Shown piece by piece: positions 2,192 to 46,248 of a DNA stretch of 64,000 bases. The position numbers and the translations under genes were made by a program. The notes under the pieces are model-generated. The model had not been told where the DNA came from. It saw only the letters and a list, made by a program, of their open reading frames with translations, and searched no databases. The DNA lies in NCBI GenBank assembly GCA_022824465.1, contig JAJDZV010000005.1, forward strand, positions 62,001-126,000, read 5' to 3'. Source of the stretch: Anaerolineae bacterium (GTDB taxonomy: Bacteria > Chloroflexota > Anaerolineae > Aggregatilineales > Phototrophicaceae). The number at the start of each line of letters is the position of its first letter. Positions within the stretch are counted from its first letter, which is position 1.

Positions 2192-2247
2192 TACGCTTGT
2201 TTCACCTCACATTTCCGCCGTAGCGCAACGCACAATGAATGATTTGG

Positions 2248-3207: not shown

Positions 3208-3277
3208 GCTTAGCGTCTCTTTAAGTGGTCTCCGTCTGATTTCTCATGCGCAATTGGCGGCTCAGCACTGATCAAGC

Positions 3278-4258: not shown

Positions 4259-4342
4259 TGCATTCTCCCTTTGTGGTCTAACGTAGAGCTTGGCGCGCGG
4301 CCAAAGCGCGCTTGCGTTATTCTAGGCGAACACGGCATGCGT

Positions 4343-5563: not shown

Positions 5564-5639
5564 ATCGCTGCCCGCCCGTTAGTATGTTCACAAACCGCCG
5601 AAACTCTAGCACAAATCCACAAAAGTCCACAGTTGCTCT

Positions 5640-7346: not shown

Positions 7347-7384
7347 TCCGTCTCTCCGCGTCTCGCTTTATTGCAGCGGCCCGC

Positions 7385-12512: not shown

Positions 12513-13550
12513 CTAACGCAGTTTGTAGTGCTCCTCTGGGGATTCGCGCAGGCGTGCAGCGGCTTGCTCTGGCGTAATGTCTCGCTGCGCCTCAGCCAGC
12601 ATTTCATACCCGACCATGAATTTCTTTACCGTAGAGGAGCGCAGCAAAGGCGGATAAAAGTGCGCATGCAACTGCCAGTGGTCATTGGCGTCGCCGGAGT
12701 GTGGCGCGCCATGCCAGCCCATTGAATAGGGAAAGGACGTTTCGAATAGATTATCGTAGGCGACAAGCAGCCGCTTTAGTATCTGCGACAGTTTGCGGCG
12801 CTGCCTTGCGTCAAGCTCCGGCAGGCGCATAACGGGAAACTTGGGAAGGAGCATGGTCTCATAGGGCCAGAGCGCCCAGTAGGGTACGACAACAAGCCAA
12901 CTGCTGTTCTCCATCACCACTCGTTCAGCCATTTCCAGCTCGCGATTGGCGTACTCCAACAGCAGCCTGTTTCCACAACGTTCGCTAAAGGCGCGTTGCT
13001 GAGCGTCTTCCTTATGAGGAATGGAGCCCAAGCTATCGGTGGCCCAAATCTGGCCGTGGGGATGCGGGTTGGAGGCGCCCATCATCGCGCCGCGATTCTC
13101 GAAGACCTGCACCCAGCTATATCTCTCTCCAAGCTCGAGCGTCTGGCGCGCCCAAAGGTCGACTACTCGCTCGATTTCTGTAAGCGACATCTCGGCCAGC
13201 GTCAGATCGTGCCGCGGCGAGAAGCAGATAACACGCGCCTCGCCACGAAGCGACATTGTCTTGAACAGGGCTCCGGCGCATTTATCGAAATCGGGGGCGT
13301 CTGGCAACACGGCGGAGTAATCGTTAACGAAGACGAAGGTGGATTCGTAGTTTGGATTCCGGTCGCCATTCGCGCGCGTGTTGCCCGGGCAGAGATAGCA
13401 GTCAGGATCGTATGGCGGGCGGACAATAGCGGGCGGTCTTTCTTCGCTCCCCTGCCATGGTCGCTTGGCGCGATGCGGCGATACCAGAATCCACTCGTCC
13501 AGAAGGGGGTTATAGCGCCGGTGCGGATGCTTCTCCAGATCAAAACTCAT
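12513..13550 (-). CDS. galT: Galactose-1-phosphate uridylyltransferase
   Basis: [41 protein letters not shown] motifs. Confidence 0.95.
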
Positions 13551-28444: not shown

Positions 28445-29470
28445 ATGACTCGCGATAGCAACTACGTTCTTGAAGTGCGTGACTTACGCACGTACTTTCA
28501 TTTGCCGGAAGGGACGCTCAAGGCCGTCGACGGCGTTGATCTGACGATTGAGCCGGGACAGACTGTTGGCGTCATCGGCGAGTCGGGCTCAGGCAAAAGC
28601 GTCACCGCCCAGTCCATTTTGCAGATCGTCACGCCGCCAGGCGCAATCGAGTCCGGTGAGATTATCCTGCGCCGCAAGAACGGCAACGTAGCCGACTTGG
28701 CAAATATGGACGCGCGCAGTCGCGAGATTCGCGCCATCCGCGGCGCCGAAATCTCGATGGTCTTTCAAGAACCGATGACGAGTCTATCCCCGGTTCATAC
28801 AATCGGCGCGCAGATTGTTGAAGCGATTCAACTGCATATAATGCCGGATAAGCGCAACGCCAAGGACCTGGCGCTGGACATGATCAATCGCGTCGGCATC
28901 TCTAGCCCGGCGCAGCGCTTCGATGAATACCCGCACCAACTTTCCGGCGGCATGCGTCAGCGCGCCATGATCGCGATGGCGCTGTCTTGCAGTCCCGCGC
29001 TCTTGATCGCCGACGAACCCACCACCGCGCTTGATGTGACCGTGCAAGCCCAGATACTTGAGTTGATGAAAGAGCTGCAGGATGAGCTGGGCATGGCGGT
29101 CATGTATATCACGCATGATCTGGGCGTCATTGCTGAAATCGCCGATCTCGTCAATGTTATGTATCTTGGTCGAGTCGTCGAGCGCGCTACGACCGTCGAG
29201 CTCTTCAAGAATCCGCTGCATCCGTATACCCAGCGGCTGTTGAGTTCCATCCCGCGCCTGGGAAGTCGCGGTCAAGGCCGCCTTGACGCCATCCGCGGCA
29301 GCGTGCCCGTGCCGATGGATCCGCCGCCTCAATGCGGTTTCGCGTCGCGCTGCGATGAGTTCATGGCGGGCAAATGCGACGCCGCCGTGCCGTCGTTGGT
29401 CGATATGGGCAACGAGCACTGGGTGCGCTGCTACCTGCACAGCGAAGAAAGCGAAGCGCAATATGCCTGA
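28445..29470 (+). CDS. Oligopeptide/dipeptide-type ABC transporter ATPase (DppD/OppD-like)
   Basis: GESGSGKSVTAQSIL, HQLSGGMRQRAMIAMALSCSPALLIADEPTTALDVTVQAQIL, C-terminal oligo_HPY region. Confidence 0.93.
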   Translation: MTRDSNYVLEVRDLRTYFHLPEGTLKAVDGVDLTIEPGQTVGVIGESGSGKSVTAQSILQIVTPPGAIESGEIILRRKNGNVADLANMDARSREIRAIRGAEISMVFQEPMTSLSPVHTIGAQIVEAIQLHIMPDKRNAKDLALDMINRVGISSPAQRFDEYPHQLSGGMRQRAMIAMALSCSPALLIADEPTTALDVTVQAQILELMKELQDELGMAVMYITHDLGVIAEIADLVNVMYLGRVVERATTVELFKNPLHPYTQRLLSSIPRLGSRGQGRLDAIRGSVPVPMDPPPQCGFASRCDEFMAGKCDAAVPSLVDMGNEHWVRCYLHSEESEAQYA

Positions 29471-30527
29471 CTCGACGATGAAGGAGCAAGCGTCCGCGAC
29501 GAAGGAAATCGGCGAAGTTCTGTTGGACGTGCGCGACCTCAAGAAATACTTTCCCATCGAGAAGGGTTTCTTTCGGTCGGTTACGGGAAACGTGCGGGCG
29601 GTAGACGGCGTCAGCTTCCAAATCCATGAAGGCGAGACCTTTGGCTTGGTCGGCGAATCCGGCAGCGGCAAGACCACCCTCGGGCGGTGTATCGTGCGGG
29701 CGATTTCGCCGACAAGCGGGCAGATTCGTTTTCGCTTGCCCGATGGCGACGAGGTCGACATTGCGGCGCTGTCCCGCCGCGAATTGCGGGACGTGCGGAA
29801 ACACTTTCACATGATTTTCCAGGATCCCTACTCCTCGCTCGATCCCAGGATGTCAGTATTGGATATCATCGCCGAGCCGATACGCAACAACAGGCTGCTC
29901 GCCGAAAAGCGCGACATTCAAGATCGAGTGCGTGACCTGATGCAAGTCGTCGGATTGGATATCCAGCATCTCAACCGCTATCCGCACGCGTTCTCCGGCG
30001 GACAGCGTCAGCGCATTGGCATCGCGCGTTCGCTGGCGCCCAATCCCCGGCTCATCGTCTGCGACGAAGCGGTATCGGCGCTTGATGTTTCAATTCAGGC
30101 GCAGATTCTCAATTTGCTCGAAGACCTGCAGGAAGACTTCAATCTGACCTTTCTGTTCATCGCGCATGACTTGTCTGTGGTGGAGCACATCTCGGATCGC
30201 GTCGGCGTGATGTATGTTGGCAAACTCGTCGAAATGGCTGATACCGACTCGCTCTTCGCCGACCCGAAACATCCCTACACCGAAGCGCTGCTGTCCGCCG
30301 TGCCGACCACCGATCCCGAAATCAAGATGGATCGCATAATCCTGCCGGGCGAAGTGGCCAATCCCGCTGCGCCGCCCTCCGGTTGCTATTTTCATCCCCG
30401 CTGCCGGTACGCGCAGGACATCTGCAAGAGCGAAACGCCACAGTGGAACGAGGTAGCGCCCGGGCACTTTGCCGCCTGCCACTTCGCCGACGAGCTCGAT
30501 TTACGCGGTGTGGATAGCGTGCGCTGA
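29463..30527 (+). CDS. Oligopeptide/dipeptide-type ABC transporter ATPase (DppF/OppF-like)
   Basis: GESGSGKTTLGRCIV, FSGGQRQRIGIARSLAPNPRLIVCDEAVSALDVSIQAQIL; ATG at 29463 overlaps previous stop. Confidence 0.93.
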   Translation: MPDSTMKEQASATKEIGEVLLDVRDLKKYFPIEKGFFRSVTGNVRAVDGVSFQIHEGETFGLVGESGSGKTTLGRCIVRAISPTSGQIRFRLPDGDEVDIAALSRRELRDVRKHFHMIFQDPYSSLDPRMSVLDIIAEPIRNNRLLAEKRDIQDRVRDLMQVVGLDIQHLNRYPHAFSGGQRQRIGIARSLAPNPRLIVCDEAVSALDVSIQAQILNLLEDLQEDFNLTFLFIAHDLSVVEHISDRVGVMYVGKLVEMADTDSLFADPKHPYTEALLSAVPTTDPEIKMDRIILPGEVANPAAPPSGCYFHPRCRYAQDICKSETPQWNEVAPGHFAACHFADELDLRGVDSVR

Positions 30528-30907
30528 TGGATCTGCTCCTTCTTTTCGGCCTGGCAGCCGTCATCGGCGCACTAGCCATAGCCGCTGTGATTATCTGGTC
30601 GACGCAACGGGCGGCCGCATCAGCCATAACCAGCTATTTCAAGGCGAGCGAATTTATCCTGGAAACTGGCCAGCCGCCTCCCGAGTGGCTGGCGCAAACC
30701 AAGCGCCGGCGTCTGTTTCGCGTGAATCGATCCCGCGCGTCGCATGCGGAACTGATGGCGCGCTTTGACGAGTTGGCGCGCTTCTTTGAAGGCTGCCGTT
30801 TCTTCGAGGACGAATGGGCGCGCGAGCAAATGCTGACGCAATTGGCGGCTATTCGCGAAAAGTGGCAGGATCGCGCGTTCACCTGCGCATCGATTGACAG
30901 ACTATAG
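30527..30907 (+). CDS. Small single-pass membrane protein, hypothetical
   Basis: ATG overlaps previous TGA (TGATGG); N-terminal TM helix followed by charged helical domain. Confidence 0.55.
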   Translation: MDLLLLFGLAAVIGALAIAAVIIWSTQRAAASAITSYFKASEFILETGQPPPEWLAQTKRRRLFRVNRSRASHAELMARFDELARFFEGCRFFEDEWAREQMLTQLAAIREKWQDRAFTCASIDRL

Positions 30908-32548
30908 CTTTCGCACATAAACGTAATACGCGCCGCGCTCGCGCTTGGACCTGGCATTCGAAAGCCGGGTGCTTAGCAATGTCGCGCCAGCGCCCAAGTC
31001 CACTTTGAAGACGGCGCTGCTGGCGCCTGGCTCAAGCGGCTGCTCCCACTCGACCTCGCCCACCTTTACAACGGCGCGATCAGCGCCTATGGGCTGATCG
31101 ACATTGATGGGATAGCTGCGCAATTCGACCTCGTAGCTGCCTGGCGCCGTCGCGTCTATGCGCCAGAATCCGTTAGCGTCAACCTCGGGCGAGTCGATCC
31201 AGCTTTGCATCCAAGGGACGCGGCCGCTTGTCGGATGCCAATCACGCGCCGATAGCAGTACCGGATCATGGCGAGTATCGCCAACGGGAATAGCGATGGT
31301 TTCAGAGAACGCGCCCTGCATATCCGCCCACCAGCGGTCGTAATCGCGTCGAAGCTCCGCCGCCCGCCCGTGATTTTCAGCCAAACGATTGCAGGTTTGC
31401 GCCGGATCTCGCTGGGTGTCGTAGAGTTCTCCGTCATTGATCAGGCGCCAGCGCCCCTTGAGCACAGCGGTATGATGCCACTTCGTCGGTTGGTCCGGCT
31501 GCAATTGAATTACAATCGAGCGCTCCGGTAAGACTGAGTCATCGCCGCGCATGAGATCCGCCAGGCTCAGCCCATCGAATTCAACAGTTGCAGCGGGCGC
31601 TAGATCGCAGAGTTCAAGCAAGGTCGGGAGGATATCAATATGGGCGGTAGCCTGGGGGATTCTTCGCGCAGCCGGGAGCGAGCCTTGCCAGCGCATAAAG
31701 AAGCTGACACGATGGCCGCCGTCATACACCGAGCCCTTCTTGCCGCGCATGCCGGCATTGTAGCCCTCGCCAGTTAGAGGGTCGTAACCGGCCGCTGTGC
31801 CATGGTCAGAGGTGAAGATTACGATAGTGTCTTCATCAAGTTGCAGTCGTTTCAAGAGTGTGAAAAGGCGGCCCATGTTTTCGTCGAAGTTTGCGATCAT
31901 GCCGTAGAAATTGGCGCGGTCCTCAGGAATTCCCAGCTTCTTGTAGGGCGCGGCGTATTGCTTAGGCACAATGAAGGGTGAATGCATGGCGTTTGTGGCC
32001 AGGTAAACGAAGAACGGTGATTGGGCGCTTGCGTTGATGAAGTCGAGCGCGGCCTCAAAGAAGACATCAGTGCAATAGCCCGCGCATTGTTCCGGCACGC
32101 CCTTGCGGAAGTAGGCGTCGTCGAAGTAGCTGTTGCCCCAGAAATCGGGCAATTCGCCGACGCCGCCGCCACGATGGCACAGGACGTCGTGAAAGCCACG
32201 AAATTCCGGGGCAAAGGGGTAGTTGTCTCCCAGATGCCATTTGCCGAACATGCCGCAGCGGTAGCCGTTTGCCGCGAAGTGGTCGGCCATTGTTAGCGCC
32301 TTGGGATTCAGCAGATGCCGTCCTTGAGTCACATGCCAGACGCCATTGCGAGCGGCGTATTGACCGGTAAGGAGCGCCGCGCGCGAGGGCGAACAAAGCG
32401 GATCGTGATGATGGTCATCGAGTTGGACGCTTTCGCGCGCCATCTGATCGAGGTTCGGCGTTTGCAGCAGCGGATTGCCGTGACAACCGATATCGCCGTA
32501 GCCTTGGTCGTCAGTGAAGACGAGTATCACGTTCGGCGATCGCGTCAT
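30902..32548 (-). CDS. Type I sulfatase (arylsulfatase family, formylglycine type)
   Basis: NVILVFTDDQGYGDIGCHGN, CSPSRAALLTGQYAARNG (C-x-P-x-R FGly motif), GKWHLGD, FTSDHGTAAG. Confidence 0.94.
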   Translation of the reverse strand: MTRSPNVILVFTDDQGYGDIGCHGNPLLQTPNLDQMARESVQLDDHHHDPLCSPSRAALLTGQYAARNGVWHVTQGRHLLNPKALTMADHFAANGYRCGMFGKWHLGDNYPFAPEFRGFHDVLCHRGGGVGELPDFWGNSYFDDAYFRKGVPEQCAGYCTDVFFEAALDFINASAQSPFFVYLATNAMHSPFIVPKQYAAPYKKLGIPEDRANFYGMIANFDENMGRLFTLLKRLQLDEDTIVIFTSDHGTAAGYDPLTGEGYNAGMRGKKGSVYDGGHRVSFFMRWQGSLPAARRIPQATAHIDILPTLLELCDLAPAATVEFDGLSLADLMRGDDSVLPERSIVIQLQPDQPTKWHHTAVLKGRWRLINDGELYDTQRDPAQTCNRLAENHGRAAELRRDYDRWWADMQGAFSETIAIPVGDTRHDPVLLSARDWHPTSGRVPWMQSWIDSPEVDANGFWRIDATAPGSYEVELRSYPINVDQPIGADRAVVKVGEVEWEQPLEPGASSAVFKVDLGAGATLLSTRLSNARSKRERGAYYVYVRKL

Positions 32549-32768: not shown

Positions 32769-33860
32769 TCAAGCATAACCGCCGCGATGATGTGAGCTTT
32801 CCCAACGAACGATGAAGTCCCAAGGTTCGTCGTTTGCCAGCAAGCCTAGCGGATCATGCCCTTGCACGACGTTGTGGGCGCTATAAGTCGCCACGTGGCT
32901 CAACCCCCAGCGCAAGCCGGAAAGCGGCTCGGCATTGTCGGCGTCCTCAACGCGCGTGGCGCCGGTAGCCTGTGGCGGCGCGATGATGGTCGCCTTTGGC
33001 TCGAAGTTGATGCCGTCTTGCGCGAACTGGATCGTATTCTTCTCAGGACCGCAGCGGGTGAGCAGGGCGCCGACCCCGCCGCTGTAATTCCAAACCATGA
33101 CTTCGTGGCCGCTGTTGGTGATTGGATTGAAAGGAGACTTCGTGTAGGGACCGCACGGATTATCGGCGATGGCGACGCCCCACATGCTGTGCATATTACT
33201 GTGTCCGATGCCTTCGCCTTTGAAGTAGAGCCAATACTGCCCATTGCGGTAGAGCAAGGCGGGATCATGGACGCGGAGGCTGTCGAACGTGCCCTTTACG
33301 GTGGCGTCAAGCGGATGGGCGCGCTCGTCAACTTCGCCAGACGGGTCTGGCTCGACGACGGGCGCGGGGCTTTTGGTCCAGGGTCCGCTCGGCGAATCGG
33401 ACCAAGCGATGGCGATGGACTCCGGCGTACAGCGCCAGGTAGGCGCGGCAGTGACTTGGTAAACCAGGTAGTAGCGTCCGTCATGCGCCAGGACATCGGG
33501 CGTGAAGACGCTGCGCTCGTCGTAGCTGCCGGCCGGTCCTCGTTCAACTGCTGGACCTTGCTCCTGCCAGGTATGGCCGTCTGCCGATGTCGCAAACCAG
33601 ACATCGGTAAGATCCCAAGGCATAGCGGGCAAGGCGTCTGTAGCGCGTTCGTGGCCGACTGGCGGGCAGGGATGGGCGCCGCGCGTGTACCAGACGTAGT
33701 AGAGACCGTCGACTTGAATGATGCAGCTGGGATCGCGACGGACAATGCCGCGCTCATAACCGAGACCAGGAGCGGGCATATAGCGGAAGCGTGTGAACCA
33801 GGGATTGTCTTCGTCGGGACCGTGGTATCGTTTGCTGGCGGCGCTTTGCATAAAAGTCAA
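32769..33860 (-). CDS. GH117-like glycoside hydrolase
   Basis: RRDPSCIIQVDGLYYVWYTRG, YDERSVFTPDVL, SDSPSGPWTKSPAPV, RVHDPALL, NPITNSGHEVMVWNYSGGVGALLTRCGPEKNTIQFAQDGINFE, WGLSHV: GH117 (neoagarobiose hydrolase) layout. Confidence 0.87.
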   Translation of the reverse strand: MTFMQSAASKRYHGPDEDNPWFTRFRYMPAPGLGYERGIVRRDPSCIIQVDGLYYVWYTRGAHPCPPVGHERATDALPAMPWDLTDVWFATSADGHTWQEQGPAVERGPAGSYDERSVFTPDVLAHDGRYYLVYQVTAAPTWRCTPESIAIAWSDSPSGPWTKSPAPVVEPDPSGEVDERAHPLDATVKGTFDSLRVHDPALLYRNGQYWLYFKGEGIGHSNMHSMWGVAIADNPCGPYTKSPFNPITNSGHEVMVWNYSGGVGALLTRCGPEKNTIQFAQDGINFEPKATIIAPPQATGATRVEDADNAEPLSGLRWGLSHVATYSAHNVVQGHDPLGLLANDEPWDFIVRWESSHHRGGYA

Positions 33861-33874
33861 TACTCCAGTAGCAA

Positions 33875-34960
33875 CTAGATATAGGTGCGGCGCTCGTCAT
33901 CGATTTCCCAGCGAACGAGGAAATCCCATGGTTCGTCGATATCGGCAAGCCCCAGCGGATCCGCGCCTTGCATGATGAGATGAGAGCTCCGCGGAATGAC
34001 ATGACTCAAGCCCCAGCGGAAACGCGCCAGCGGCTCGGTGTTTCGCGCTTCATCGACTCGATGGGGACCGGCGGCTTGCGGCGGCACAACCAACTGCGCC
34101 ATCACCTCAAAGTTGATGCCGTCGGCGGCGAACTGGAAGGTGTTTTTCTCCGGACCGCAGCGGTTAACCAGGCCGGCCACGCCACCTTCGTATGACCACA
34201 CTACCACCTCGTGTCCGCTGTTGGTGATCGGGTTGAAGAGCGATCGGGTGTAGGGACCGAAGGGCGAATCGGCAAGCGCCACGCCCCATTTGCTCTCCAT
34301 GTGATGGTAGCCGATGCCTTCGCCCTTATAGTAGAGCCAGAATTTCCCCTCGCGGTAAATCAGGGCGGGATCGTGGACTTGCAGGCTGTCCCAGGCGCCG
34401 CGTTCTATACAGTCTTCGGGGTCGCACCGTTCGTCGACCACGCCCGAGGGGTGGGGTTCAAGGATCGGCGACGGGCTCTTTGTCCAAGGTCCGCGAGGCG
34501 AGTCGGCCCAGGCAATGGCGATGGATTCCGGCGTGCTGCGAAAATTGGGCGAGCGCGCTACCTGGTAGACCATGTAATAGCGGCCCTCATGCAAGAGCAC
34601 ATCGGCGGTGAAGACGCCGCGCTCATCATAGGCGCCGACGCCTCCGCGCTCAACCGCAGGACCCTGCTCCACCCAGTTATGCCCGTCGACCGATGTGGCA
34701 TACCAGACATCAGCCAAGTCCCAAGGCGTGGCCGGCAGGGTGTCGGTCATGCGGTCGAAGCCAACCGGCGGACAAGGATGGGCGGCGCGGGTGTACCAGA
34801 TGAAATACTCGCCGTTTATCTGCAGAATGGCGCTGGGGTCGCGGCGGACGACGCCTTTCTCGTATCCCAAGCCGGTTATGGGACTGTATTTGAACTTTGC
34901 GTACCAGGGATTATCGCGATCGGGTTGGTGGAATCGTTGCATGGCGGCGCTTAAAGGCAT
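33875..34960 (-). CDS. GH117-like glycoside hydrolase
   Basis: Paralog of 32769..33860; start set at MPLSAAMQRFH (34960) preceded by AGGA, rather than the 35005 ORF start. Confidence 0.87.
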   Translation of the reverse strand: MPLSAAMQRFHQPDRDNPWYAKFKYSPITGLGYEKGVVRRDPSAILQINGEYFIWYTRAAHPCPPVGFDRMTDTLPATPWDLADVWYATSVDGHNWVEQGPAVERGGVGAYDERGVFTADVLLHEGRYYMVYQVARSPNFRSTPESIAIAWADSPRGPWTKSPSPILEPHPSGVVDERCDPEDCIERGAWDSLQVHDPALIYREGKFWLYYKGEGIGYHHMESKWGVALADSPFGPYTRSLFNPITNSGHEVVVWSYEGGVAGLVNRCGPEKNTFQFAADGINFEVMAQLVVPPQAAGPHRVDEARNTEPLARFRWGLSHVIPRSSHLIMQGADPLGLADIDEPWDFLVRWEIDDERRTYI

Positions 34961-34985
34961 AGTTTGTCCTTTCAAAAAGAAGCAA

Positions 34986-35011
34986 GGTGGTGCGACAGGC
35001 GTCACACCACC
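34986..35011 (-). other. Stem-loop between family-5 binding protein and GH117 gene
   Basis: ggtggtg...caccacc inverted repeat; on minus transcript followed by ttgcttcttttt. Confidence 0.5.
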
Positions 35012-35038: not shown

Positions 35039-37051
35039 TTAGTTGCTGCCGCCTTCGAAGTACCACTGTTCGGGCATGAACATGACCCATTGGCGGTAGC
35101 TCCATGCCCATTGACCGACAGTGTCGTTTGGCGGCGTGTTCTTCAAGTTGGTCTTGAAGAGTAGGGGCTGGGGCGGGCGCTGGATGGTGCCGATGATGTA
35201 GAGTCCGCCGAAGGAAGCGTTGTAGAAGGTTTTGCCGGTCTCGATCCATTCGTCAGTGCCGTAGGGGGCTTCCAGGAATTGCTCGCCAAGTTCCCAGAGT
35301 TCCTTGATCACTTCCGGCGGTTCTTCGCCATTTTCGCCGTCGCTGAGAATCCAGTCACGCCAGGGAATGCCGGAGGCGCGGTTGCCCCAACTGACACGGG
35401 TGTTGCCGAGTTGGCTGGCAACTTCACCGATATCCAGGATATCAGCTCCCCAGGCGGAGACATCAAGCTGGTTGCTGTTACGCAGCTCACGGAAGAGGCT
35501 GTCGCCGATGAGCTTGTACTGGGTTTTGACGCCGACTTCGTTCCAGTAGGAGCTGATCAACTCGCCGATTTGACGCCAGGCGTCTTCGGGGACATAGACC
35601 TGGAAGTTGATGAAGAGCGTTTCGCCGTCGGGGCGGAGGCGGAAGCCATCGCTATCGCGCTGGTCCAAGCCCATTTCGTCCAGGAGCTGGTTGGCCAGGT
35701 CGGGGTCATATTGGGCGTAGTGGGTGGTCATCCAGGGTTCGTAGAAGTTCGACGATGGCACAAGGGAGTTCTGTGAAGCATTGGCGAGACCGAAGTAGAC
35801 GAGTTCGTTGATCTCTTCGCGGTTGATGGCGACGGACATGGCTTGTCGGAAGCGGACATCCCAGAAGATCTCGCGCAGGGGCATATTTTCGGTGGTGAAG
35901 TTGAAGCCCAGGGCGTATTCATTGCCGCGGCTGTATTCAGCCAGGGCGGTGCGATAGCCGCCGGCTTCTTCATTTTCGCGATAGGTGGGGTAGCTGGCGA
36001 GGGTGCCCCAGCCGAAGTGGGTGTATTCGCCGGCGATGCCTTTGAGGTCCTGGACTTGCACATCTTCGACCAGGAGGCGGCGCAGGGTATCGGTATAGGG
36101 CAGTTGGTTGCCGGCGGTATCGACCTTGAAGAAGTAGGGGTTGCGCTCATAGAGCTTGTTGCCGAAAGCGTCTTCGCTGACGAAGACGAAGGTGTTGAGC
36201 GTGGGCGAATAGGGATCGGTTTCCGAGCCCAGGTTCCAGGTGAAGTTGTAGGTGTTCATCTTGGCGTTGAACATCTGGACCCAGTCTTCGAAGCCGAGTT
36301 CATCGGCGAGCGCATTGGCATCGGCGTTGTAGTCGAGGTGGTACTGCTGGAAGTAGTGTGAGGGGCGGAAGCCGCGGTGGCCGACCTCGCTGCCGAGTTG
36401 AATGATCAGGCCGTTGCGGGGTTCGGGATAGGTGAAGGTGATGGTGGTGTCGTCGATGATGTCCATTTGCGGCAGTTCGCCGTCGAGGACCCAGGGTCCG
36501 CCGGGCGCTGGCGTCAGGTCGGTATTGCCGAGCACGTCTTCAAAGTAGAAGCGGAAGTCTTCGGTGGTGAAGGGGGTGCCGTCGGACCATTTGTGGCCTT
36601 CGCGCAGGTGGAAGGTGAAGGTGGTCAGGTCGTCGGAGACTTCGTAGTCTTGGGCGATGTTGGGAACGATGGAAGCCAGGTCGGTGTCGATGGTGAGCAG
36701 CTTCTGCAAGCGCATCTCCAGGACATCCCAGCCGCAGCAATTGGGAAGGGCTGTTGGTCCTTTCAGTTCGCCGCCGTATTCGCCGATTTGCTCGAGCGGC
36801 TGGACGACGACGGGTTGTGCGGGCAGGCGCTCTTCAACCGGCGGCAGTTCGCCAGCGGCGACGCGTTCGGCCAGCATGGGCGGTTCGCCCCAAGAGTCAA
36901 TCGAGTTGCCGGTGGCGGCGGTGTAAGCGTCGAGGTCACCATATTGGAATGGATAGACGAGTTCGCCCTCGTGCATGACTTGCGCGAGCGTCCCGCCTGA
37001 TAGCAATATCAATGCGAAGAGGAGCGCGCTAGTAAAGATAATTCGCTTCAT
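35039..37051 (-). CDS. Family 5 extracellular solute-binding protein (Opp/Dpp-type)
   Basis: Signal peptide; LTTFTFHLREGHKWSDGTPFTTEDFRFYFEDV, VRFRQAMSVAINREEINELVYFGLA. Confidence 0.93.
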   Translation of the reverse strand: MKRIIFTSALLFALILLSGGTLAQVMHEGELVYPFQYGDLDAYTAATGNSIDSWGEPPMLAERVAAGELPPVEERLPAQPVVVQPLEQIGEYGGELKGPTALPNCCGWDVLEMRLQKLLTIDTDLASIVPNIAQDYEVSDDLTTFTFHLREGHKWSDGTPFTTEDFRFYFEDVLGNTDLTPAPGGPWVLDGELPQMDIIDDTTITFTYPEPRNGLIIQLGSEVGHRGFRPSHYFQQYHLDYNADANALADELGFEDWVQMFNAKMNTYNFTWNLGSETDPYSPTLNTFVFVSEDAFGNKLYERNPYFFKVDTAGNQLPYTDTLRRLLVEDVQVQDLKGIAGEYTHFGWGTLASYPTYRENEEAGGYRTALAEYSRGNEYALGFNFTTENMPLREIFWDVRFRQAMSVAINREEINELVYFGLANASQNSLVPSSNFYEPWMTTHYAQYDPDLANQLLDEMGLDQRDSDGFRLRPDGETLFINFQVYVPEDAWRQIGELISSYWNEVGVKTQYKLIGDSLFRELRNSNQLDVSAWGADILDIGEVASQLGNTRVSWGNRASGIPWRDWILSDGENGEEPPEVIKELWELGEQFLEAPYGTDEWIETGKTFYNASFGGLYIIGTIQRPPQPLLFKTNLKNTPPNDTVGQWAWSYRQWVMFMPEQWYFEGGSN

Positions 37052-37266: not shown

Positions 37267-38409
37267 TCAGCCTGTGACTTCAAAGTCGCGTAATTGGTCC
37301 CAATCAAATTGGACGCCGTGCCCGGGCACATCAGGCGCGCGCATAATGCCATCGCGCAACTGCGGCGGGTTAGTGATGAAGCGTTCCAAGCCAAAGCTAT
37401 GGACTTCCAAGTACGACGCGTTGGGTATGGCAGCCAGGAGGTGCAGATGCAACTCATGGACGCCATGTGATGTCACCTGCAAGTTGTGGGCATAAGCCAG
37501 CTTGGCCACGCGCATCCAATTGGTGATGCCGCCGATATTGGAAACATCGGGCTCGGGAAAGGCGATCTTGCCGATCTCGATCGAGTGGCGAAATTCAAAG
37601 ATGGTGTGCAGGTTTTCCCCGGCGGCGATAGGCAAGCCACCCTCGGCGGCGATCCGCGCCATGCCTTGATAGTCGTCGGGAATGGTCGGCTCTTCGAACC
37701 AAAACACATCGTATTCGCTAAAGGCTCGCGCCGCCCGGATTGCCTGTTCGACCGACCAACGCATATTGGCATCGACCATGAGCGGGAGATCTGGACCGAG
37801 GCATTCGCGCACGGCCCGCACTCGCGCGATGTCTTCGGAGAGCTTGTCGCGCCCGACTTTGATTTTTATCGCGCGGAAACCTTTCTGCAGGTTGCAGAGT
37901 GTCTGCTCGATCAATTCGTCGGGGTTGAGTTGGAGGTCGATGCCGCCGGCATAAGCGCGCGCCTCGCCCGAGAATCCGCCCAGCATTTTCCAGAGCGGCT
38001 GGCAATCGGTTTGTCCACGCAAGTCCCAAAGGGCGATATCTACGGCGGACATGGCGAAGGAAACCAATCCACCGCGGCCGATATAATGCAGGCAGCGCCA
38101 CATGCGCTCCCAGGTCTGTTCTATGCGGCGGGCGTCGGCGCCAAGCAGCAACGGCTTCAAATCCCGCTCGATCAAGGCAGCGATCGCCGCGCCGCCACGC
38201 CCGATGGTGTAGGTGTAACCGTAGCCAGCGCAGCCGCACTGTGACTCCAGCCGGACGACCACGACTTCAAAGTCGGTATGCAGGCCGTGGGTTGCGTCCG
38301 TCATAGGGTGGCTGAGCGGCAAGCGGTAGAGCTTAGTTTCGATGTATCGCACGAACATGTTAGGCACCATCGCGGCAGCAAGGGCCGCAACTGAATCAAG
38401 ACGCTTCAT
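37267..38409 (-). CDS. Enolase-superfamily enzyme, probable 3,6-anhydro-L-galactonate cycloisomerase
   Basis: GRGGLVSFAMSAVDIALWDLRGQ, AYAGGIDLQLNPDELIEQTL, IKIKVGRDKLSEDIARVRAVRECLGPDLPLMVDANMRWSVEQAI, WFEEPTIPDDYQGMARIA, AAGENLHTIFEF; resembles the Vibrio cycloisomerase as I recall it. Start may be 38358 (MFVRYIE). Confidence 0.8.
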   Translation of the reverse strand: MKRLDSVAALAAAMVPNMFVRYIETKLYRLPLSHPMTDATHGLHTDFEVVVVRLESQCGCAGYGYTYTIGRGGAAIAALIERDLKPLLLGADARRIEQTWERMWRCLHYIGRGGLVSFAMSAVDIALWDLRGQTDCQPLWKMLGGFSGEARAYAGGIDLQLNPDELIEQTLCNLQKGFRAIKIKVGRDKLSEDIARVRAVRECLGPDLPLMVDANMRWSVEQAIRAARAFSEYDVFWFEEPTIPDDYQGMARIAAEGGLPIAAGENLHTIFEFRHSIEIGKIAFPEPDVSNIGGITNWMRVAKLAYAHNLQVTSHGVHELHLHLLAAIPNASYLEVHSFGLERFITNPPQLRDGIMRAPDVPGHGVQFDWDQLRDFEVTG

Positions 38410-38594: not shown

Positions 38595-39593
38595 ATGAAG
38601 AACTACTTGTTTAAGCGTTTCGTTTATATGGTTTTTCTTCTGTGGTTGGTTTCGGTTGTTACCTTCATCGTAATTGAATTGCCGCCGGGCGATTATTTGT
38701 CCACCTACATTATCCTGCTTGAACAGAATACGGGGCAGCAACTCAGCGAGGACATCGTTGAGCGGCTTCGGCGGCAGTATGGTCTCGACTTGCCGACATA
38801 CGCTCGGTATTTCAAGTGGTTTGGACAGGTGCTTCAGGGCGAGTTTGGCTTCTCATTTGATTGGCAACAGCCGGTCCGCGACATAATCGGCGAGCGGCTT
38901 GTGTTGACCTTTACCATCGCGATATTGAGCGCGATATTCACGTACGCGGTAGCGATTCCAATCGGGATTTATTCTGCGACGCATCAGTATTCCTTTGGCG
39001 ATTATTTGGTGTCCATCATCGGCTTTGTCGGCTTAGCCATACCGAATTTCATGTTGGCTCTGATCATGCTTTACGTAGGCTTTAAGCAATTCGGCGTGAA
39101 CCTATCCGGTCTTTTTTCTCCGGATTACCTGGACGCGCCATGGAATCTGGCAAAGATTGGCGATTTGTTGTTGCACCTGCCGATTCCGATTATCGTCATC
39201 GGAACCGGCGGAACAGCCGGCTTAATTCGCGTATTGCGCGGAACATTGCTGGATGAGCTTAACAAGCAGTATGTAATCACGGCGCGCAGCAAGGGCGTCG
39301 GCGAAGTACGGCTTCTATTCAAGTATCCGGTTAGAGTGGCGCTGAATCCCATCGTCAGCAGTCTCGCCTGGCTGTTTCCTTCGCTGGTTTCGGGGGGAAC
39401 GATAACTGCGATTGTCCTGGGCCTGCCGACGGCGGGACCGATGCTATTGCGCGCTCTGCTCGCGCAGGACACCTTCCTCACGGCGACGCTGCTTATGTTC
39501 ATCACGATTCTCACCGTGATAGGCACGACGGTATCCGATATCTTGCTGGTGGTAGTGGATCCGCGTATACGCATGGAACGCGCGGCCAGCTAG
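38595..39593 (+). CDS. Oligopeptide/dipeptide-type ABC permease (DppB/OppB-like)
   Basis: YLFKRFVYMVFLLWLVSVVTFIVIELPPGDY; RVLRGTLLDELNKQYVITARSKGVGE EAA loop. Confidence 0.93.
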   Translation: MKNYLFKRFVYMVFLLWLVSVVTFIVIELPPGDYLSTYIILLEQNTGQQLSEDIVERLRRQYGLDLPTYARYFKWFGQVLQGEFGFSFDWQQPVRDIIGERLVLTFTIAILSAIFTYAVAIPIGIYSATHQYSFGDYLVSIIGFVGLAIPNFMLALIMLYVGFKQFGVNLSGLFSPDYLDAPWNLAKIGDLLLHLPIPIIVIGTGGTAGLIRVLRGTLLDELNKQYVITARSKGVGEVRLLFKYPVRVALNPIVSSLAWLFPSLVSGGTITAIVLGLPTAGPMLLRALLAQDTFLTATLLMFITILTVIGTTVSDILLVVVDPRIRMERAAS

Positions 39594-39605: not shown

Positions 39606-40751
39606 ATGTGGCGACGACTGCTTGGCAGGCAGAAGAGCAACGAGCCTACAACTGGTCAATACGACGAGAGCTACTATCTGGCGTCGCAATGGCAGTTGAT
39701 GTGGCGCAAGTTCCGCCGCCACCGTTTGGCGATGGTTTCGCTTGTCGTCATACTCTTCTTGTATTCGCTGGCGCTTTTCGCCGAATTCTATTCGATAAAC
39801 GATCACCACAGGCGCCATGTCAAGTATGCGAAAGCGCCGCCGCATACCTTGTATTTCGTCGATGAAGACGGCAAGTTTCACCTTGTTCCCTTCATATACG
39901 ATCTCAAGCAAGAGCTCGATTTGGATACCCTGCAGCGCAATTACACCGAGGATCGCTCGAAGCGTTTTCATCTGCGCTTCTTTGTTGAGGGCGAGCCGTA
40001 CAAGCTCTTGGGTTTGCTGGAGAGCAATATCCACCTGGTCGGCGTCGATCAGCCAGCGGTGTTCTTTCCTTTTGGGACCGATGATTTGGGGCGAGACTTG
40101 TTCTCGCGCACGATGTACGCGGCGAGGATTTCCCTTTCCATAGGTGTATTTGGGGTCGTGATCAGCTTCGTATTGGGCTGCCTCATCGGCGGCATTTCCG
40201 GTTACTTTGGCGGCACGGTTGATCTTATCATTCAACGCGTCATTGAGTTCATCATATCAATTCCGCATATTCCGCTGTGGATTGCGCTTGCGGCCGCTCT
40301 GCCTGCCGAGTGGAGTTCGACGCAAGTCTACTTCGGCATTACGATCGTGTTGGCGACGGTCGGCTGGACGACGCTGGCGCGCGCCGTCCGCGGCAAGCTG
40401 CTGGAATTGCGCGAGGCGGACTTTGTTATGGCGGCGCGGATTTCCAATATGGGCGACTTCGACATTATCGTGAAACACCTGCTGCCGTCCTTCGCGAGCT
40501 TCTTGATCGTGGTGCTCAGCCTGTCGGTGCCGGGCATGATCCTGGCGGAGACGGCGCTTAGCTTCTTGCGGATTGGAATCCAGCCGCCAGCCGTGAGTTG
40601 GGGCGTACTTCTGCAGGACGCGCAAAATATACGCAGTTTGAGCCAGAGCCCATGGCTGCTGATTCCCGGTTTATTTGTAATCGTCACGGTACTGGCTTTC
40701 AACTTTCTAGGCGACGGCTTGCGTGATGCGGCCGATCCGTATAAACAGTAG
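39606..40751 (+). CDS. Oligopeptide/dipeptide-type ABC permease (DppC/OppC-like)
   Basis: WRKFRRHRLAMVSLVVILFLYSLALFAEF; GTDDLGRDLFSRTMYAARISLSIG; READFVMAARISNMGDFDIIVKHLLPS. Confidence 0.93.
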   Translation: MWRRLLGRQKSNEPTTGQYDESYYLASQWQLMWRKFRRHRLAMVSLVVILFLYSLALFAEFYSINDHHRRHVKYAKAPPHTLYFVDEDGKFHLVPFIYDLKQELDLDTLQRNYTEDRSKRFHLRFFVEGEPYKLLGLLESNIHLVGVDQPAVFFPFGTDDLGRDLFSRTMYAARISLSIGVFGVVISFVLGCLIGGISGYFGGTVDLIIQRVIEFIISIPHIPLWIALAAALPAEWSSTQVYFGITIVLATVGWTTLARAVRGKLLELREADFVMAARISNMGDFDIIVKHLLPSFASFLIVVLSLSVPGMILAETALSFLRIGIQPPAVSWGVLLQDAQNIRSLSQSPWLLIPGLFVIVTVLAFNFLGDGLRDAADPYKQ

Positions 40752-40797: not shown

Positions 40798-41406
40798 ATG
40801 TCCACACCCGAAATCTATCGCACACTTCCAGAGCAGATCGCTGCCCGATTGCGGCAGGAGGTTCTGTCAAGCAAGCTGAAGCCGGGGGACCCGCTTCGCG
40901 AGGTTGATCTCTCTGAGCGCTTTGGCGTTAGTCGAGGACCGGTACGCGAAGCCTTCCGCCAATTGACGCAGCAGGGCCTGTTGGTGCTGGAACCAAATAA
41001 GGGTGTGCGCGTGGCGGAGAACCCGAGTGTAGAAGTGCGACCGCTGGTTGTAAGATTGCGGCGCACAATCGAAATATTCGTGCTGGAGAGCATATTTGAG
41101 CGGATCACTGAAGACGATGTTTCGAACTGGGAAGATATTCTAGCGGATATCAAAACGGCATGTGAGTCCAACGATGTGGATGCCTTAACCGAGCACGATT
41201 TGCGTTTTCATCAGGCAATCATCCGCAGCCATGATGACAAGGACTTGTTCGCATTGTGGCAGCCGATAGCGATGCGAATGATGATGCACTACAATCGCCT
41301 GGATGACATTATGGACAGCTATCGCGAGCACGAGCGCATTCTCGAAGCTATTCGCGCTGGCGACCGGGCGGCGGCCGTCCGCGCCCTCGAAACCAACATT
41401 CAGTAG
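40798..41406 (+). CDS. GntR-family regulator with FCD domain
   Basis: IAARLRQEVLSSKLKPGDPLREVDLSERFGVSRGPVREAFRQLTQQGLLVLEPNKGVRV wHTH plus helical FCD C-terminus. Confidence 0.93.
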   Translation: MSTPEIYRTLPEQIAARLRQEVLSSKLKPGDPLREVDLSERFGVSRGPVREAFRQLTQQGLLVLEPNKGVRVAENPSVEVRPLVVRLRRTIEIFVLESIFERITEDDVSNWEDILADIKTACESNDVDALTEHDLRFHQAIIRSHDDKDLFALWQPIAMRMMMHYNRLDDIMDSYREHERILEAIRAGDRAAAVRALETNIQ

Positions 41407-41466: not shown

Positions 41467-42483
41467 ATGACAAAAGCAGCCTACTACCTGGGCGACCATA
41501 CGATTCGTCACGGACCAGGTGAGATAATCGAACCGAAGAGCGGCGAGGTTCAGCTTAAGGTATCACATTGCGGCATCTGCGGCACGGACCTGCACATCTA
41601 CCACGGCGCGATGGACGCTCGTGTCAAGATGCCCTTGGTCATGGGACATGAGATGTCGGGGACGGTGCAATCTGTCGGTGATGGCGTTGTCAATTTCGCC
41701 GCGGGCGATAAAGTGGTTGTCATGCCGCTAGCCCCATGTGGCGACTGCCCCGCTTGCGCCACCGGACATAGCCATATCTGCCATAATCTGAACTTCCTCG
41801 GCATTGACACGCCGGGCGCATTCCAAAGCTATTGGACAGTGCCGGCCTACACCTTGCACAGGATGCCGGAACATCTCTCTCTGGCGCATGGCGCCTTGAT
41901 AGAGCCGCTGGCGGTCGCCGCGCACGATGTGCGGCTGGCCGGAGTGAAAGCTGGCGATGAAGTTGTGGTGCTGGGCGGCGGACCCATCGGATTGCTCGTC
42001 GCCTTGGTGGCGCGGCAAGCTGGCGCTCGTGTACTCGTATCCGAGATCAATCCTTACCGCGTCGAGTTGGCTATGCGTCTCGGTTTGGATGCGATCAATC
42101 CAAATGAGGCGGATCTAATCAAGCTGGTCATGCAGCGCACAAGCGGCGCCGGCGCCGATATTGTCTTTGAGGTGTCGGGTTCGCAAGCTGGCGCATCGGT
42201 CATGACTGAATTGCTGCGCACACGTGGACTGGCAGTGGTGGTGGCGATATTTGCGCGGAAGCCTGAGGTCGATCTTTTTCGTTTCTTCTGGCGCGAATTG
42301 CGCTTGCAGGGCGTACGGGTTTATGAATCCGAAGATTTCACCGCTGCGATTGAACTGGCTGCCTCCGGCGTCTTGCCGCTAGACGATCTAATCACCGATA
42401 TCCGTCCGCTGAGCGCTTTGAAGTCTGGTTTCAAGGATTTGGATAGGGGCGGGCGCGTGATGAAGATACTTCTGGAGCTCTAA
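41467..42483 (+). CDS. Zinc-dependent alcohol/polyol dehydrogenase (MDR family)
   Basis: CGICGTDLHIYHGAMDARVKMPLVMGHEMSGTV, GGGPIGLLVALVARQAGA. Confidence 0.92.
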   Translation: MTKAAYYLGDHTIRHGPGEIIEPKSGEVQLKVSHCGICGTDLHIYHGAMDARVKMPLVMGHEMSGTVQSVGDGVVNFAAGDKVVVMPLAPCGDCPACATGHSHICHNLNFLGIDTPGAFQSYWTVPAYTLHRMPEHLSLAHGALIEPLAVAAHDVRLAGVKAGDEVVVLGGGPIGLLVALVARQAGARVLVSEINPYRVELAMRLGLDAINPNEADLIKLVMQRTSGAGADIVFEVSGSQAGASVMTELLRTRGLAVVVAIFARKPEVDLFRFFWRELRLQGVRVYESEDFTAAIELAASGVLPLDDLITDIRPLSALKSGFKDLDRGGRVMKILLEL

Positions 42484-43254
42484 ATGAAGGTACTGCAGAG
42501 TTTTCGTCTGGACGGGAAGACAGCGCTGGTTACCGGCGCGCGCCGCGGCATCGGGCGGGCAATGGCGAATGCCCTGGCGGAGGCGGGCGCGGATATTATC
42601 GCGGTCAGCGCCAACCTTGAGGCGACCGGCAGTGATATCGAACAAGAGGTTACCAGGCTGGGCCGACGCTTTGCTGGCTACCGCTGCGACTTTTCCCATC
42701 GTGATGACGTCTATCGTTTTGTCCAGCGGGTGACTGCTGACCATCCGGCGATAGACATCCTGGTCAACAACGCCGGCACGGTAGTGCGTGAGCCGGCTGA
42801 GAACCACTCTGACGAATATTGGGACAGAATCATAGAGACCAACCTCAGCGCCCAATTCGTGCTCAGCCGTGAATTGGGCAAGCGGATGCTTGAGCGCGGT
42901 CGGGGCAAGATCATCTTTACCGCGTCGCTTCTAACCTTCCAGGGCGGTATAACTGTGCCTGGTTATGCGGCGAGCAAAGGCGGCATCGGGCAGTTGACCA
43001 AGGCGCTCGCCAACGAGTGGGCGGGACGGGGCGTCCAGGTCAACGCGATCGCGCCTGGTTATGTGCGCACGGATGTCACCGAAGCGCTGCAAAATGATCC
43101 TGATCGTTACCGCGCCATTCTCGAACGGATTCCCGCCGGACGCTGGGGCAACATTGATGATTTCAAGGGTCCGGCGGTCTTCCTGGCTTCGGCCGCTTCA
43201 GATTTTGTGAACGGCGAGATCCTGGTGGTCGATGGCGGTTGGATGGGGCGCTAA
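42484..43254 (+). CDS. SDR oxidoreductase, KduD-like (2-keto-3-deoxy sugar acid dehydrogenase)
   Basis: TGARRGIGRAMANALAEAGAD, NNAGTVVREPAENHSDEYWDRIIETNLSAQF, LTFQGGITVPGYAASKGGIGQLTKALANEWAGRGVQVNAIAPGYVRTDVTEAL, RIPAGRWG, VDGGWMGR, KduD-type. Confidence 0.88.
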   Translation: MKVLQSFRLDGKTALVTGARRGIGRAMANALAEAGADIIAVSANLEATGSDIEQEVTRLGRRFAGYRCDFSHRDDVYRFVQRVTADHPAIDILVNNAGTVVREPAENHSDEYWDRIIETNLSAQFVLSRELGKRMLERGRGKIIFTASLLTFQGGITVPGYAASKGGIGQLTKALANEWAGRGVQVNAIAPGYVRTDVTEALQNDPDRYRAILERIPAGRWGNIDDFKGPAVFLASAASDFVNGEILVVDGGWMGR

Positions 43255-43292: not shown

Positions 43293-44567
43293 TCAAGTCC
43301 CGATTGTTGACCGGTCGAATTCGGACTGTTGCGCCAGGATCTGCTTGCGCCACTCGTCCGGCAGTTGAGCAATCGGCTGAAACCAACTGTCTTCGTGCCA
43401 GTGCAGATTACTTCGTTTGAATTCTTGCCGATTGCTGTCGCGCGACAGCTCACAATCAAAGCGCACGATGTAGAGCCCTTTGTTCGTGTTGGGTGTCTGC
43501 GGATGGATGTGGCTCAAACCCCAGGTAATACCGCGTCCGTCGCCATTGTCAGCGAACGCGTCAGGGCAGAAGGGACCGGGCGCGTGAGGCGAAAGCTGGA
43601 CGTGCGCCTTTGGTTCGAAATTTAGTCCATCCGGCGCGAATTGCACGGTATCTTTTTCCGGACCATCCTGGATGAGCAAGGCGGCGATGCCACCCTCGTA
43701 GGGCCACAACATTGTTTCATGACCGGAATTGGTCACCGGATTCAAATCCGGTTTTACGAAGGGCCCTTCGGGATGCTCGGCGATTGCCACGCCTTGCGCC
43801 AGCCTTAAGCTGCCGGGCGACTTATCGGCCGGCGAGCCTTTGTAATAGAGCCAAATCTTGCCCTGATAGATCAAGGGATAAGGGTCGTGGATGGCGCAAC
43901 TGTCCCAATCGCCGGGCAAGCCTTGTGGAATCACCGGCCGGTCAAGACGCGTCCACGGACCATCCGGCGAATCTGACCAGGCGGCGCTGACGTTAACGCA
44001 GTCGTTCTGACGCCACATCGTGGTGAAGGTCTGATAATAGAGATAGTAGCGCCCCTTGAAAACCAGGATATCCGGCGTCGAAAGCGATCGGTCGCCATAG
44101 GAGCCTTTGGGCGCGCGCGGCACGGCGACGCCCTGCTCCACCCAGTCAAAACCGTCTTTAGAGGTAGCGTAGCATATGTCGGCGAGATCCCAATCGACCA
44201 CCGGTATTTCGTTATTCGCCTTGTCGATATTGAAACGCCCAACCGGCATAAACTTCGTGCGTCGCCGCGTATACCACACATAGTAGGTATCGCCAATTTT
44301 GAGAACTTTCGACGGATCCCGCCGAGACACCGAAAGTTCGGTCTCATCCTTTCCGATGCCCGTGACCCGCGAATATCTGAATGTTGTATAGAATGGGTTG
44401 CCGATATCTTGTCTGGGCGTCCACCTATCGTAGACCCGCGCCATCGCCGCGCTCAGCGGTCGGTCAGTCGGTTTTTCCAGCGGCAACTTGCCAGGGAATG
44501 CTCCTCTTGATTCGCTCATTACTCCTCCTGAATTACTGGATTGCCGCAAAGCGCGCTGCCTCAACAA
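43293..44567 (-). CDS. GH117-like glycoside hydrolase
   Basis: SRRDPSKVLKIGDTYYVWYTRRRT, YGDRSLSTPDILV, AIHDPYPLI, NPVTNSGHETMLWPYEGGIAALLIQDGPEKDTVQFAPDGLNFE, WGLSHI. Start may be downstream at MSESRGAFPG. Confidence 0.85.
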   Translation of the reverse strand: MLRQRALRQSSNSGGVMSESRGAFPGKLPLEKPTDRPLSAAMARVYDRWTPRQDIGNPFYTTFRYSRVTGIGKDETELSVSRRDPSKVLKIGDTYYVWYTRRRTKFMPVGRFNIDKANNEIPVVDWDLADICYATSKDGFDWVEQGVAVPRAPKGSYGDRSLSTPDILVFKGRYYLYYQTFTTMWRQNDCVNVSAAWSDSPDGPWTRLDRPVIPQGLPGDWDSCAIHDPYPLIYQGKIWLYYKGSPADKSPGSLRLAQGVAIAEHPEGPFVKPDLNPVTNSGHETMLWPYEGGIAALLIQDGPEKDTVQFAPDGLNFEPKAHVQLSPHAPGPFCPDAFADNGDGRGITWGLSHIHPQTPNTNKGLYIVRFDCELSRDSNRQEFKRSNLHWHEDSWFQPIAQLPDEWRKQILAQQSEFDRSTIGT

Positions 44568-44673: not shown

Positions 44674-46248
44674 ATGAACGTTGCCGATTATATCGTCATC
44701 GGCGCCGGGTCTGCGGGCGCGGCGGTAGCGGGCCGTCTGAGCGAAAGCGGCCGCTTCACTGTGCTGCTGCTTGAAGCGGGCGGACCGGATTCCAATCCGA
44801 ATATTCATATTCCAGCGCGATTTTCTGACTTATTTCACAGCGATATCGATTGGGATTATGTGACCGTTCCGCAGCCCGGTCTGAATGGACGCCGGGAGTA
44901 CGTGCCGCGGGGCAAGGTTTTCGGCGGCACCAGCTCAATGAACGCCATGGTCTATCAGCGCGGACATCCCTCGGATTACGATCGCTGGGCGGCGGGTGGC
45001 AACAGTGGCTGGGCTTATGACGAGTTGCTGCCCTACTTCCGTAAGATGCAGCATCAGGAGCGCGGCGAATCGGCGAATCACGGCGTCGGGGGGCCGATCA
45101 ATGTGGCTGATCTGCAAGACCCCAATCCGCTGAGTCATGCATTCGTGGCGGCGGCGCTGACATTGGGCTTTCGCCACAATGCCGACTTCAATGATGGCGA
45201 GCAGGAAGGCTTTGGTCTCTACCAAGTGACGCAGAAAGACGGACGGCGACATAGCTCGGCGGTGGGCTATTTGCGGCCCGCCTTAAAGCGAGAAAACTTC
45301 AGCGCCCTGCCCCTCGCCCGAGCCACAGAGCTGGATGTCAAGAGCGGACGCTGCGTCGGCGTCAGGTATCTGCATGAGGGCGCAGAAAAGACTGCGCGCG
45401 CCGTTCAGGAAGTCATCGTCTGTGGCGGCGCCATTAATTCACCCCAACTGCTGATGCTTTCGGGGATCGGACCGCGCGATCATCTTTTGGATAAAGGCAT
45501 AGAAGTGATCCAAGACCTGCCCGGCGTCGGACAGAACCTGATGGATCATATGCAAGTCCCCTTGGCCTATCACTGCAAAGAGCCAGTCAGCCTGGTCGGT
45601 AAGGAATCAGCCGGGCAGCTAAGACAGTATCAGCAGAGCCGGATGGGCTTATTGACGTCTAATTTGGGCGAGGCGGGCGGGTTCGTACGCTTGAACGCGG
45701 ATTCGACTGCGCCGGAATTGCAATATCATTTTGGTCCGGACTGGTTCATCCGCCACGGCTTCGAAACGCCCGACGGCCACGGCTTTACCATTCTGGCTGG
45801 CATGGTCAGCACCAAAAGCATCGGCGAACTTAGGTTGCGGTCGGCGAGTCTTTTAGCGCCACCTCTCATTGACTTCGCTTGTCTCAGCCGCGATGAAGAC
45901 GTTCAGACGCTATTGGCAGGCATTAGATTGGGGCGCGAGATCGCTTCCGCCACAACCTTCGATCGCTATCGCGGCGATGAGTTTTTGCCGGGGGCTGGCG
46001 TCGCCTCTGATGAAGATCTCACGCATTATATTCGAGAATTCGCCACCACCATTTATCATCCGGCGGGCAGCTGCAAGATGGGCAGCGATCGTATGGCGGT
46101 TGTGGATGAGCGCCTCCGCGTCAGAGGCATCGAAGGCTTGCGCGTAGCTGACGCATCGATAATGCCGCATATCATCAATGCCAATACCAACGCGCCTTGC
46201 ATCATGATCGGCGAAAAGGCCGCCGCTATGATTCTTGAGGATTCCTAA
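44674..46248 (+). CDS. GMC-family FAD-dependent oxidoreductase
   Basis: YIVIGAGSAGAAVAGRLSE, RGKVFGGTSSMNAMVYQRG, GAINSPQLLMLSGIGP, NTNAPCIMIGEKAAAMIL. Confidence 0.94.
   Translation: MNVADYIVIGAGSAGAAVAGRLSESGRFTVLLLEAGGPDSNPNIHIPARFSDLFHSDIDWDYVTVPQPGLNGRREYVPRGKVFGGTSSMNAMVYQRGHPSDYDRWAAGGNSGWAYDELLPYFRKMQHQERGESANHGVGGPINVADLQDPNPLSHAFVAAALTLGFRHNADFNDGEQEGFGLYQVTQKDGRRHSSAVGYLRPALKRENFSALPLARATELDVKSGRCVGVRYLHEGAEKTARAVQEVIVCGGAINSPQLLMLSGIGPRDHLLDKGIEVIQDLPGVGQNLMDHMQVPLAYHCKEPVSLVGKESAGQLRQYQQSRMGLLTSNLGEAGGFVRLNADSTAPELQYHFGPDWFIRHGFETPDGHGFTILAGMVSTKSIGELRLRSASLLAPPLIDFACLSRDEDVQTLLAGIRLGREIASATTFDRYRGDEFLPGAGVASDEDLTHYIREFATTIYHPAGSCKMGSDRMAVVDERLRVRGIEGLRVADASIMPHIINANTNAPCIMIGEKAAAMILEDS

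Follow-up and report, generated by a model that had tools for sequence, protein, structure and literature searches.

The gene at positions 37267-38409 of the analyzed window, a stretch of 64,000 nucleotides from an Anaerolineae bacterium, very probably encodes a 3,6-anhydro-L-galactonate cycloisomerase (ACI) acting in the L-anhydrogalactose (L-AHG) route of its locus, judging from its sequence. It is a further member of an already known enzyme family. 3,6-Anhydro-L-galactonate arises when the agar sugars of red algae are broken down, and AHG is poorly fermentable, which hinders the use of red seaweed. The gene lies in a near-complete, genus-wide L-AHG catabolic locus of a Chloroflexota group that apparently includes sponge-associated members. 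This suggests galactan fragments of red algae, or a yet-unrecognised AHG-like sugar of the holobiont, as a food source of the cells. The locus around ACI is possibly a pathway variant. Its features are listed in Table 1.

Table 1. Annotated features of the L-AHG locus and its surroundings in the window
Feature	Position	Strand	Basis
galT	12513..13550	-	TIGR00209, 517.9 bits vs cut-off 102.1
OppD-type ABC ATPase	28445..29470	+	OppD/OppF flank the locus in relatives too
OppF-type ABC ATPase	29463..30527	+	Sequence; ATG chosen as start, frame open from 29283
S1-type sulfatase, CSPSR motif, signal peptide not obvious	30902..32548	-	Pfam; 6prm 1.1e-50, 9fo1 8.7e-47
GH117 (b), same type as GH117 (a), 65% identical to this neighbour	32769..33860	-	Catalytic motifs
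GH117 (a), alpha-1,3-(3,6-anhydro)-L-galactosidase, BuGH117/BpGH117-like	33875..35005	-	5ta7 5.5e-96; RRDPS, VHDP, NSGHE
Family-5 extracellular solute-binding protein (SBP), signal-like N-terminus	35039..37051	-	Pfam SBP_bac_5 8.7e-58; conserved beside ACI
ACI, 3,6-anhydro-L-galactonate cycloisomerase, enolase superfamily, MR subgroup	37267..38409	-	Pfam, PDB phmmer, trees, catalytic residues
OppB-type ABC permease	38595..39593	+	Domain searches
OppC-type ABC permease	39606..40751	+	Domain searches
GntR/FCD transcriptional regulator	40798..41406	+	Domain search
Zn-dependent alcohol dehydrogenase (ADH), predicted 2-keto-3-deoxy-L-galactonate 5-dehydrogenase	41467..42483	+	47-54% to ADH beside ACI elsewhere
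SDR, predicted 2,5-diketo-3-deoxy-L-galactonate 5-reductase	42484..43254	+	69% to Catenovulum protein of that name
GH117 (c)	43293..44567	-	Identity: Zg3615 (4u6d) 48% vs BpGH117 44%
GMC FAD oxidoreductase, candidate AHG-dehydrogenase replacement	44674..46248	+	Pfam GMC_N/GMC_C; PDB 9lq0 3.5e-119
Tandem GH117 (d + e), two domains of ~420 aa each	46252..48789	+	Both catalytic motif sets intact

The ACI reading frame encodes 380 aa from an ATG start with zero internal stops, and its pairwise dN/dS of 0.08-0.11 against four relatives marks it as a genuine gene kept by purifying selection. The annotated start codon is uncertain; homologues mostly start aligning at about residue 17-20, and Met14 and Met18 are alternative starts. 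The overlapping frame on the opposite strand (37486-38244, +) is most likely a shadow frame.

Both MR_MLE_N (1.5e-18) and MR_MLE_C (8.2e-66) domains of Pfam were detected in the protein. The highest-scoring PDB entries in the phmmer search were 2ovl (429 bits, 1.6e-127) and VejACI of Vibrio sp. EJY3 (5xd7; 392 bits, 2.7e-116), followed far below by the third distinct protein with 206 bits (5.8e-60). The entry 2ovl, a Streptomyces coelicolor structure, is presumably SCO3480 (2ovl/3ck5). Besides this origin, the assignment is based on its 41% identity to VejACI, as the value printed for SCO3480 is 42% (PMC9706016). SCO3480 turns anhydrogalactonate into KDGal, as shown by TLC and mass spectrometry (PMC9706016).

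In trees of 71 and 36 rows, the Chloroflexota proteins, SCO3480, and VejACI formed one clade with support of 100/99 and 92/97, respectively, and SCO3480 and VejACI, both assayed ACIs, were the only characterised enzymes inside it. The Chloroflexota ACI was tentatively placed as sister to the SCO3480 lineage (96/82 and 95/86), and AU tests kept the alternative orders of the three deep lineages (Chloroflexota, SCO3480, and VejACI; p 0.10 and 0.17). All NCBIfam equivalogs stayed below their cut-offs, the top match being L-talarate/galactarate dehydratase with 241 bits vs 500. Identities as rhamnonate (149 bits vs a cut-off of 393), galactonate, talarate/galactarate, and mannonate dehydratase were thus all rejected. 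The preliminary description had called the gene an ACI, had proposed HMM comparison with ACIs and other MR-subgroup enzymes as a check, and had named phylogeny beforehand as a refuting test. The ACIs are the best PDB matches and the catalytic residues are kept. The call holds in the phylogeny, where the protein lies in a different clade from galactarolactone cycloisomerase (4ggb), DauB (5olc), and the other MR-subgroup rows. All nine motif strings quoted in that description are present in the translation and recur in VejACI at aligned places.

The catalytic and metal residues of ACI are K182, K184, D213, E239, E265, D288, H315, and E335. Seven of the eight SCO3480 active-site residues map one to one on the first seven of these, while the eighth, E335, corresponds to the conserved Glu 317 in the numbering of the residue comparison, printed as 307 in the SCO3480 figure legend. 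Twelve columns (H41, G42, F47, Y65, Y67, H108, Y109, G155, D158, N266, H337, and F339) are invariant in 49 out of 49 clade rows; they are common to both assayed ACIs and uncommon in rows outside the clade. In the proposed reaction, a divalent metal would be bound by D213, E239, and E265, and the proton alpha to the carboxylate would be abstracted with a KxK lysine or the H315/D288 dyad as base. The C3-C6 ether oxygen would then be expelled, yielding 2-keto-3-deoxy-L-galactonate (L-KDGal).

Five GH117 domains occur in four genes of the locus, and RRDPS, HDP, and NSGHE are found in all five. GH117 (a) is the copy nearest to ACI, lying one gene away behind the SBP gene. Both GH117 (a) and (b) share 47-49% identity with BuGH117 and BpGH117 and retain the catalytic residues. 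By homology and catalytic motifs, the GH117s of the locus are the predicted AHG-releasing component of the pathway. The adjacency argument put forward earlier for ACI is therefore borne out by the two closest copies. Matches to GH117 appear in just 9 of 72,556 plasmids, mostly of known or likely agar users. The closest solved relatives of the sulfatase are carrageenan sulfatases (6prm, 9fo1).

The two components expected after ACI, KDGal 5-dehydrogenase and DDGal 5-reductase, are both present by homology in the form of the abutting Zn-ADH and SDR genes. The ACI-linked pairs of Catenovulum, Bacteroides uniformis, Microscilla, Persicobacter, and several alphaproteobacterial loci are 64-69% identical to the SDR and 47-54% to the Zn-ADH. 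The Catenovulum SDR is annotated as 2,5-didehydro-3-deoxy-L-galactonate 5-reductase. Among the 72,556 plasmids, 13 relatives of the SDR were found at 60-69% identity, with KduD as the next group at ~53%, and 9 of these 13 records also hold an ACI homologue among the ACI matches listed. Genes of the KDPG-aldolase family were present in 12 out of 12 genomes tested.

By eye, the N-terminus of the SBP is signal-like, while those of ACI, the GH117s, and the sulfatase are not, from which we infer oligosaccharide uptake followed by cytosolic breakdown. The SBP and Opp genes would accordingly form an oligosaccharide importer taking up short AHG-bearing galactan oligosaccharides, and the sulfatase and the five GH117 domains would trim these and free L-AHG. 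An oxidoreductase would convert L-AHG to the acid, whose ring ACI would open in the second step. The Zn-ADH and SDR would epimerise C5 via a 5-keto intermediate, and the resulting 2-keto-3-deoxygluconate would pass to a kinase and then KDPG aldolase. The substrate, the kinase, and the direction of flux are predicted here from the gene set, and the step order is the same as in the L-AHG pathway of Paraglaciecola and Pseudoalteromonas atlantica (PMC5943477). Released D-galactose could be fed into the Leloir pathway by galT, ~20 kb off.

The families searched, among them GH16, GH2, and GH42, brought up no agarase. The own genome holds just one GH16, whose orthologue read in a relative (L083) has a laminarinase-type sequence, as well as marginal GH2 matches and one clear GH42. 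Since no agarase was found among these families, the simplest reading is that the cell is probably a scavenger importing ready-cut short oligosaccharides.

What sets the locus apart is the first oxidation step. Agar loci such as that of Catenovulum hold an ALDH for AHG oxidation, and to our knowledge ALDH is the AHG-oxidising enzyme in every characterised L-AHG pathway. An ALDH-type AHG dehydrogenase was found neither in the locus nor in the ACI-flanking stretch of any relative examined. Just 3 bp separate the end of the GMC gene from the tandem GH117 gene that follows it. A GMC orthologue (identity of at least 70%) occurs in 31 of the 32 ACI-bearing genomes of the genus (as a contig-end fragment in one of them), and both genomes that lack ACI also lack it. 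Given the linkage of these genes and the relatedness of the genomes, the co-occurrence says more about a common locus than about independent coupling. The predicted roles of the ADH and SDR lie in later steps, which leaves the GMC as the remaining oxidoreductase; by elimination, it might tentatively be the flavoenzyme that oxidises L-AHG in place of an ALDH, a reading given somewhat under an even chance. Choline oxidase and HMF oxidase act on the hydrated aldehyde (gem-diol), and by analogy the GMC substrate would be the gem-diol of AHG.

Alternatively, an unlinked generic ALDH may oxidise AHG with the GMC acting elsewhere, e.g., on choline or an oligosaccharide end. This reading, placed just short of an even chance, is a rival to the proposed GMC role and leaves the ACI call untouched. 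The relatives hold 4-6 ALDHs per genome, whose identity to the ALDH of the Catenovulum AHG locus reaches 36%, and SCO3486 likewise belongs to the broad ALDHs, with 40% identity to VejAHGD (PMC9706016). The nearest plasmid relatives of the GMC, at 50-51% identity (the closest at 51%), are also in its favor, as these Sulfitobacter and haloarchaeal proteins, some annotated as choline dehydrogenase, come from records absent among the ACI-search matches listed. However, the best ALDH across 13 genomes is at most 36% identical to that of Catenovulum, and no ALDH lies on the ACI contig in 12 ACI-bearing genomes except at unrelated positions on large contigs. G034, a genus member without ACI, has ALDHs as numerous as its ACI-bearing relatives. 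No dedicated AHG ALDH was found in the own genome (87% complete), which has just a double-domain ALDH, a ketoglutarate-semialdehyde-type ALDH, and ProA, while the GMC gene adjoins a GH117 gene and tracks ACI. The ALDH-less locus is therefore a good place to seek a second class of AHG-oxidising enzymes. Orthology of the GMC to the ACI-adjacent GMCs of Roseibium, Jannaschia, Paracoccus AK26, Mesorhizobium, and Caballeronia was considered and found unsupported, as identities reached just 37-45% compared to the 50-51% above.

A different substrate for ACI itself is improbable. Under this alternative, the protein would be an aldonate dehydratase, e.g., an L-galactonate dehydratase removing the C3 hydroxyl, and its substrate would derive from L-galactose (such as desulfated porphyran units) and not AHG. 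The product, L-KDGal, and the chemistry would be identical, the locus has a sulfatase, and clade members in Mesorhizobium, Priestia, Geobacillus, and Paracoccus have no GH117 nearby. Yet both assayed clade proteins are ACIs (PMC9706016; 5xd7), the five GH117 domains adjoin ACI, and the pocket signature is common to the window protein and both ACIs. Less probable still is the carrageenan-route alternative, in which the protein would be a DauB-type 3,6-anhydro-D-galactonate cycloisomerase. The likeness of the sulfatase to carrageenan sulfatases would fit it, but 5olc shares just ~30% identity with the protein and groups with AtGci in a separate clade, the locus has GH117 and not GH127/GH129, the SDR and ADH belong to the L route, and a separate DauB-like paralogue lies elsewhere in the genome.

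This paralogue (G000:C6:325987-327021; L002, L080:975-2108) groups with DauB 5olc at 473 bits, and no carrageenan genes were seen beside it. Further ACI-clade enzymes were observed in Geobacillus, Priestia, Mesorhizobium, Paracoccus, Roseibium, and Jannaschia (L051, L052, L055, L056, L058, L062, L070, L073), where most loci carry the same ADH/SDR pair and none has GH117 within the stretch. These enzymes possibly act on free AHG or L-galactonate. Since the loci of such soil and plant-bacterial members are without GH117, the ACI clade need not share one substrate.

Compared to known systems, the window ACI is ~53% identical to SCO3480, with all active-site residues and the same deep clade, and ~47% identical to VejACI, with every quoted motif and the same clade. 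Such identity to solved and assayed enzymes suffices to settle the fold. The SCO3480 locus includes the agarases DagA/B/C and the ALDH SCO3486, whereas the window locus is without an ALDH and the families tested yielded no agarase. VejACI belongs to another sub-lineage and is partnered by an NADP-dependent AHG dehydrogenase. The gene sets of P. atlantica T6c and Paraglaciecola hydrolytica (PMC5943477) and of a Catenovulum adriaticum plasmid (L053) share ACI, KDGal 5-dehydrogenase, DDGal 5-reductase, and GH117 with the window. They hold an ALDH-type AHG dehydrogenase where the window has the GMC, and the window differs further in its five GH117 domains, sulfatase, Opp-type importer, and phylum, Chloroflexota. 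The GH117 domains are 43-49% identical to BuGH117/BpGH117 (5ta7, 4ak5) with the catalytic motifs kept, and GH117 (c) is 48% identical to Zg3615 (4u6d). Unlike these enzymes, two of the window domains are fused head to tail in an 845-aa protein.

Within the genus, 32 of 34 genomes carry ACI (28 of the 29 high-quality ones), and the gene order of the locus is kept in about 25 Anaerolineae/Chloroflexi MAGs. In a family sample beyond the genus, ACI was found in one other genus out of 23, where the ADH and SDR are not adjacent. Record names such as RHO, COS, CAR, and APA correspond to sponges in PMC8163846, and many genus members, on the names of some records, appear to be sponge-associated. No literature linking sponges, Chloroflexi, and GH117 was found, and the L-AHG literature found does not name this Chloroflexota group.

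Variation was seen around the locus in relatives. In L016 (matched to G081 by contig and position), ACI, the SDR, and GH117 (a) and (c) are kept, while the ADH, GMC, and tandem GH117 are absent at the locus. The sister genus has a ThDP-dependent-type enzyme and/or two D-2-hydroxyacid-dehydrogenase-like genes near ACI (L063:15636-19337; L065:7112-9097), with the ADH/SDR absent. Its tandem GH117 (L063:6676-9393) carries NSGR for NSGHE in the second domain, by which the acid His and the next Glu are lost, and by sequence this domain looks like a pseudo-enzyme. Elsewhere in the window, positions 935-8743 encode a PLP enzyme, an amino-acid-kinase-family protein, an OTCase-like protein, a YgeY hydrolase, an adenine deaminase, and an amidohydrolase, a cluster resembling the YgeW-YgeX-YgeY purine/selenium cluster.
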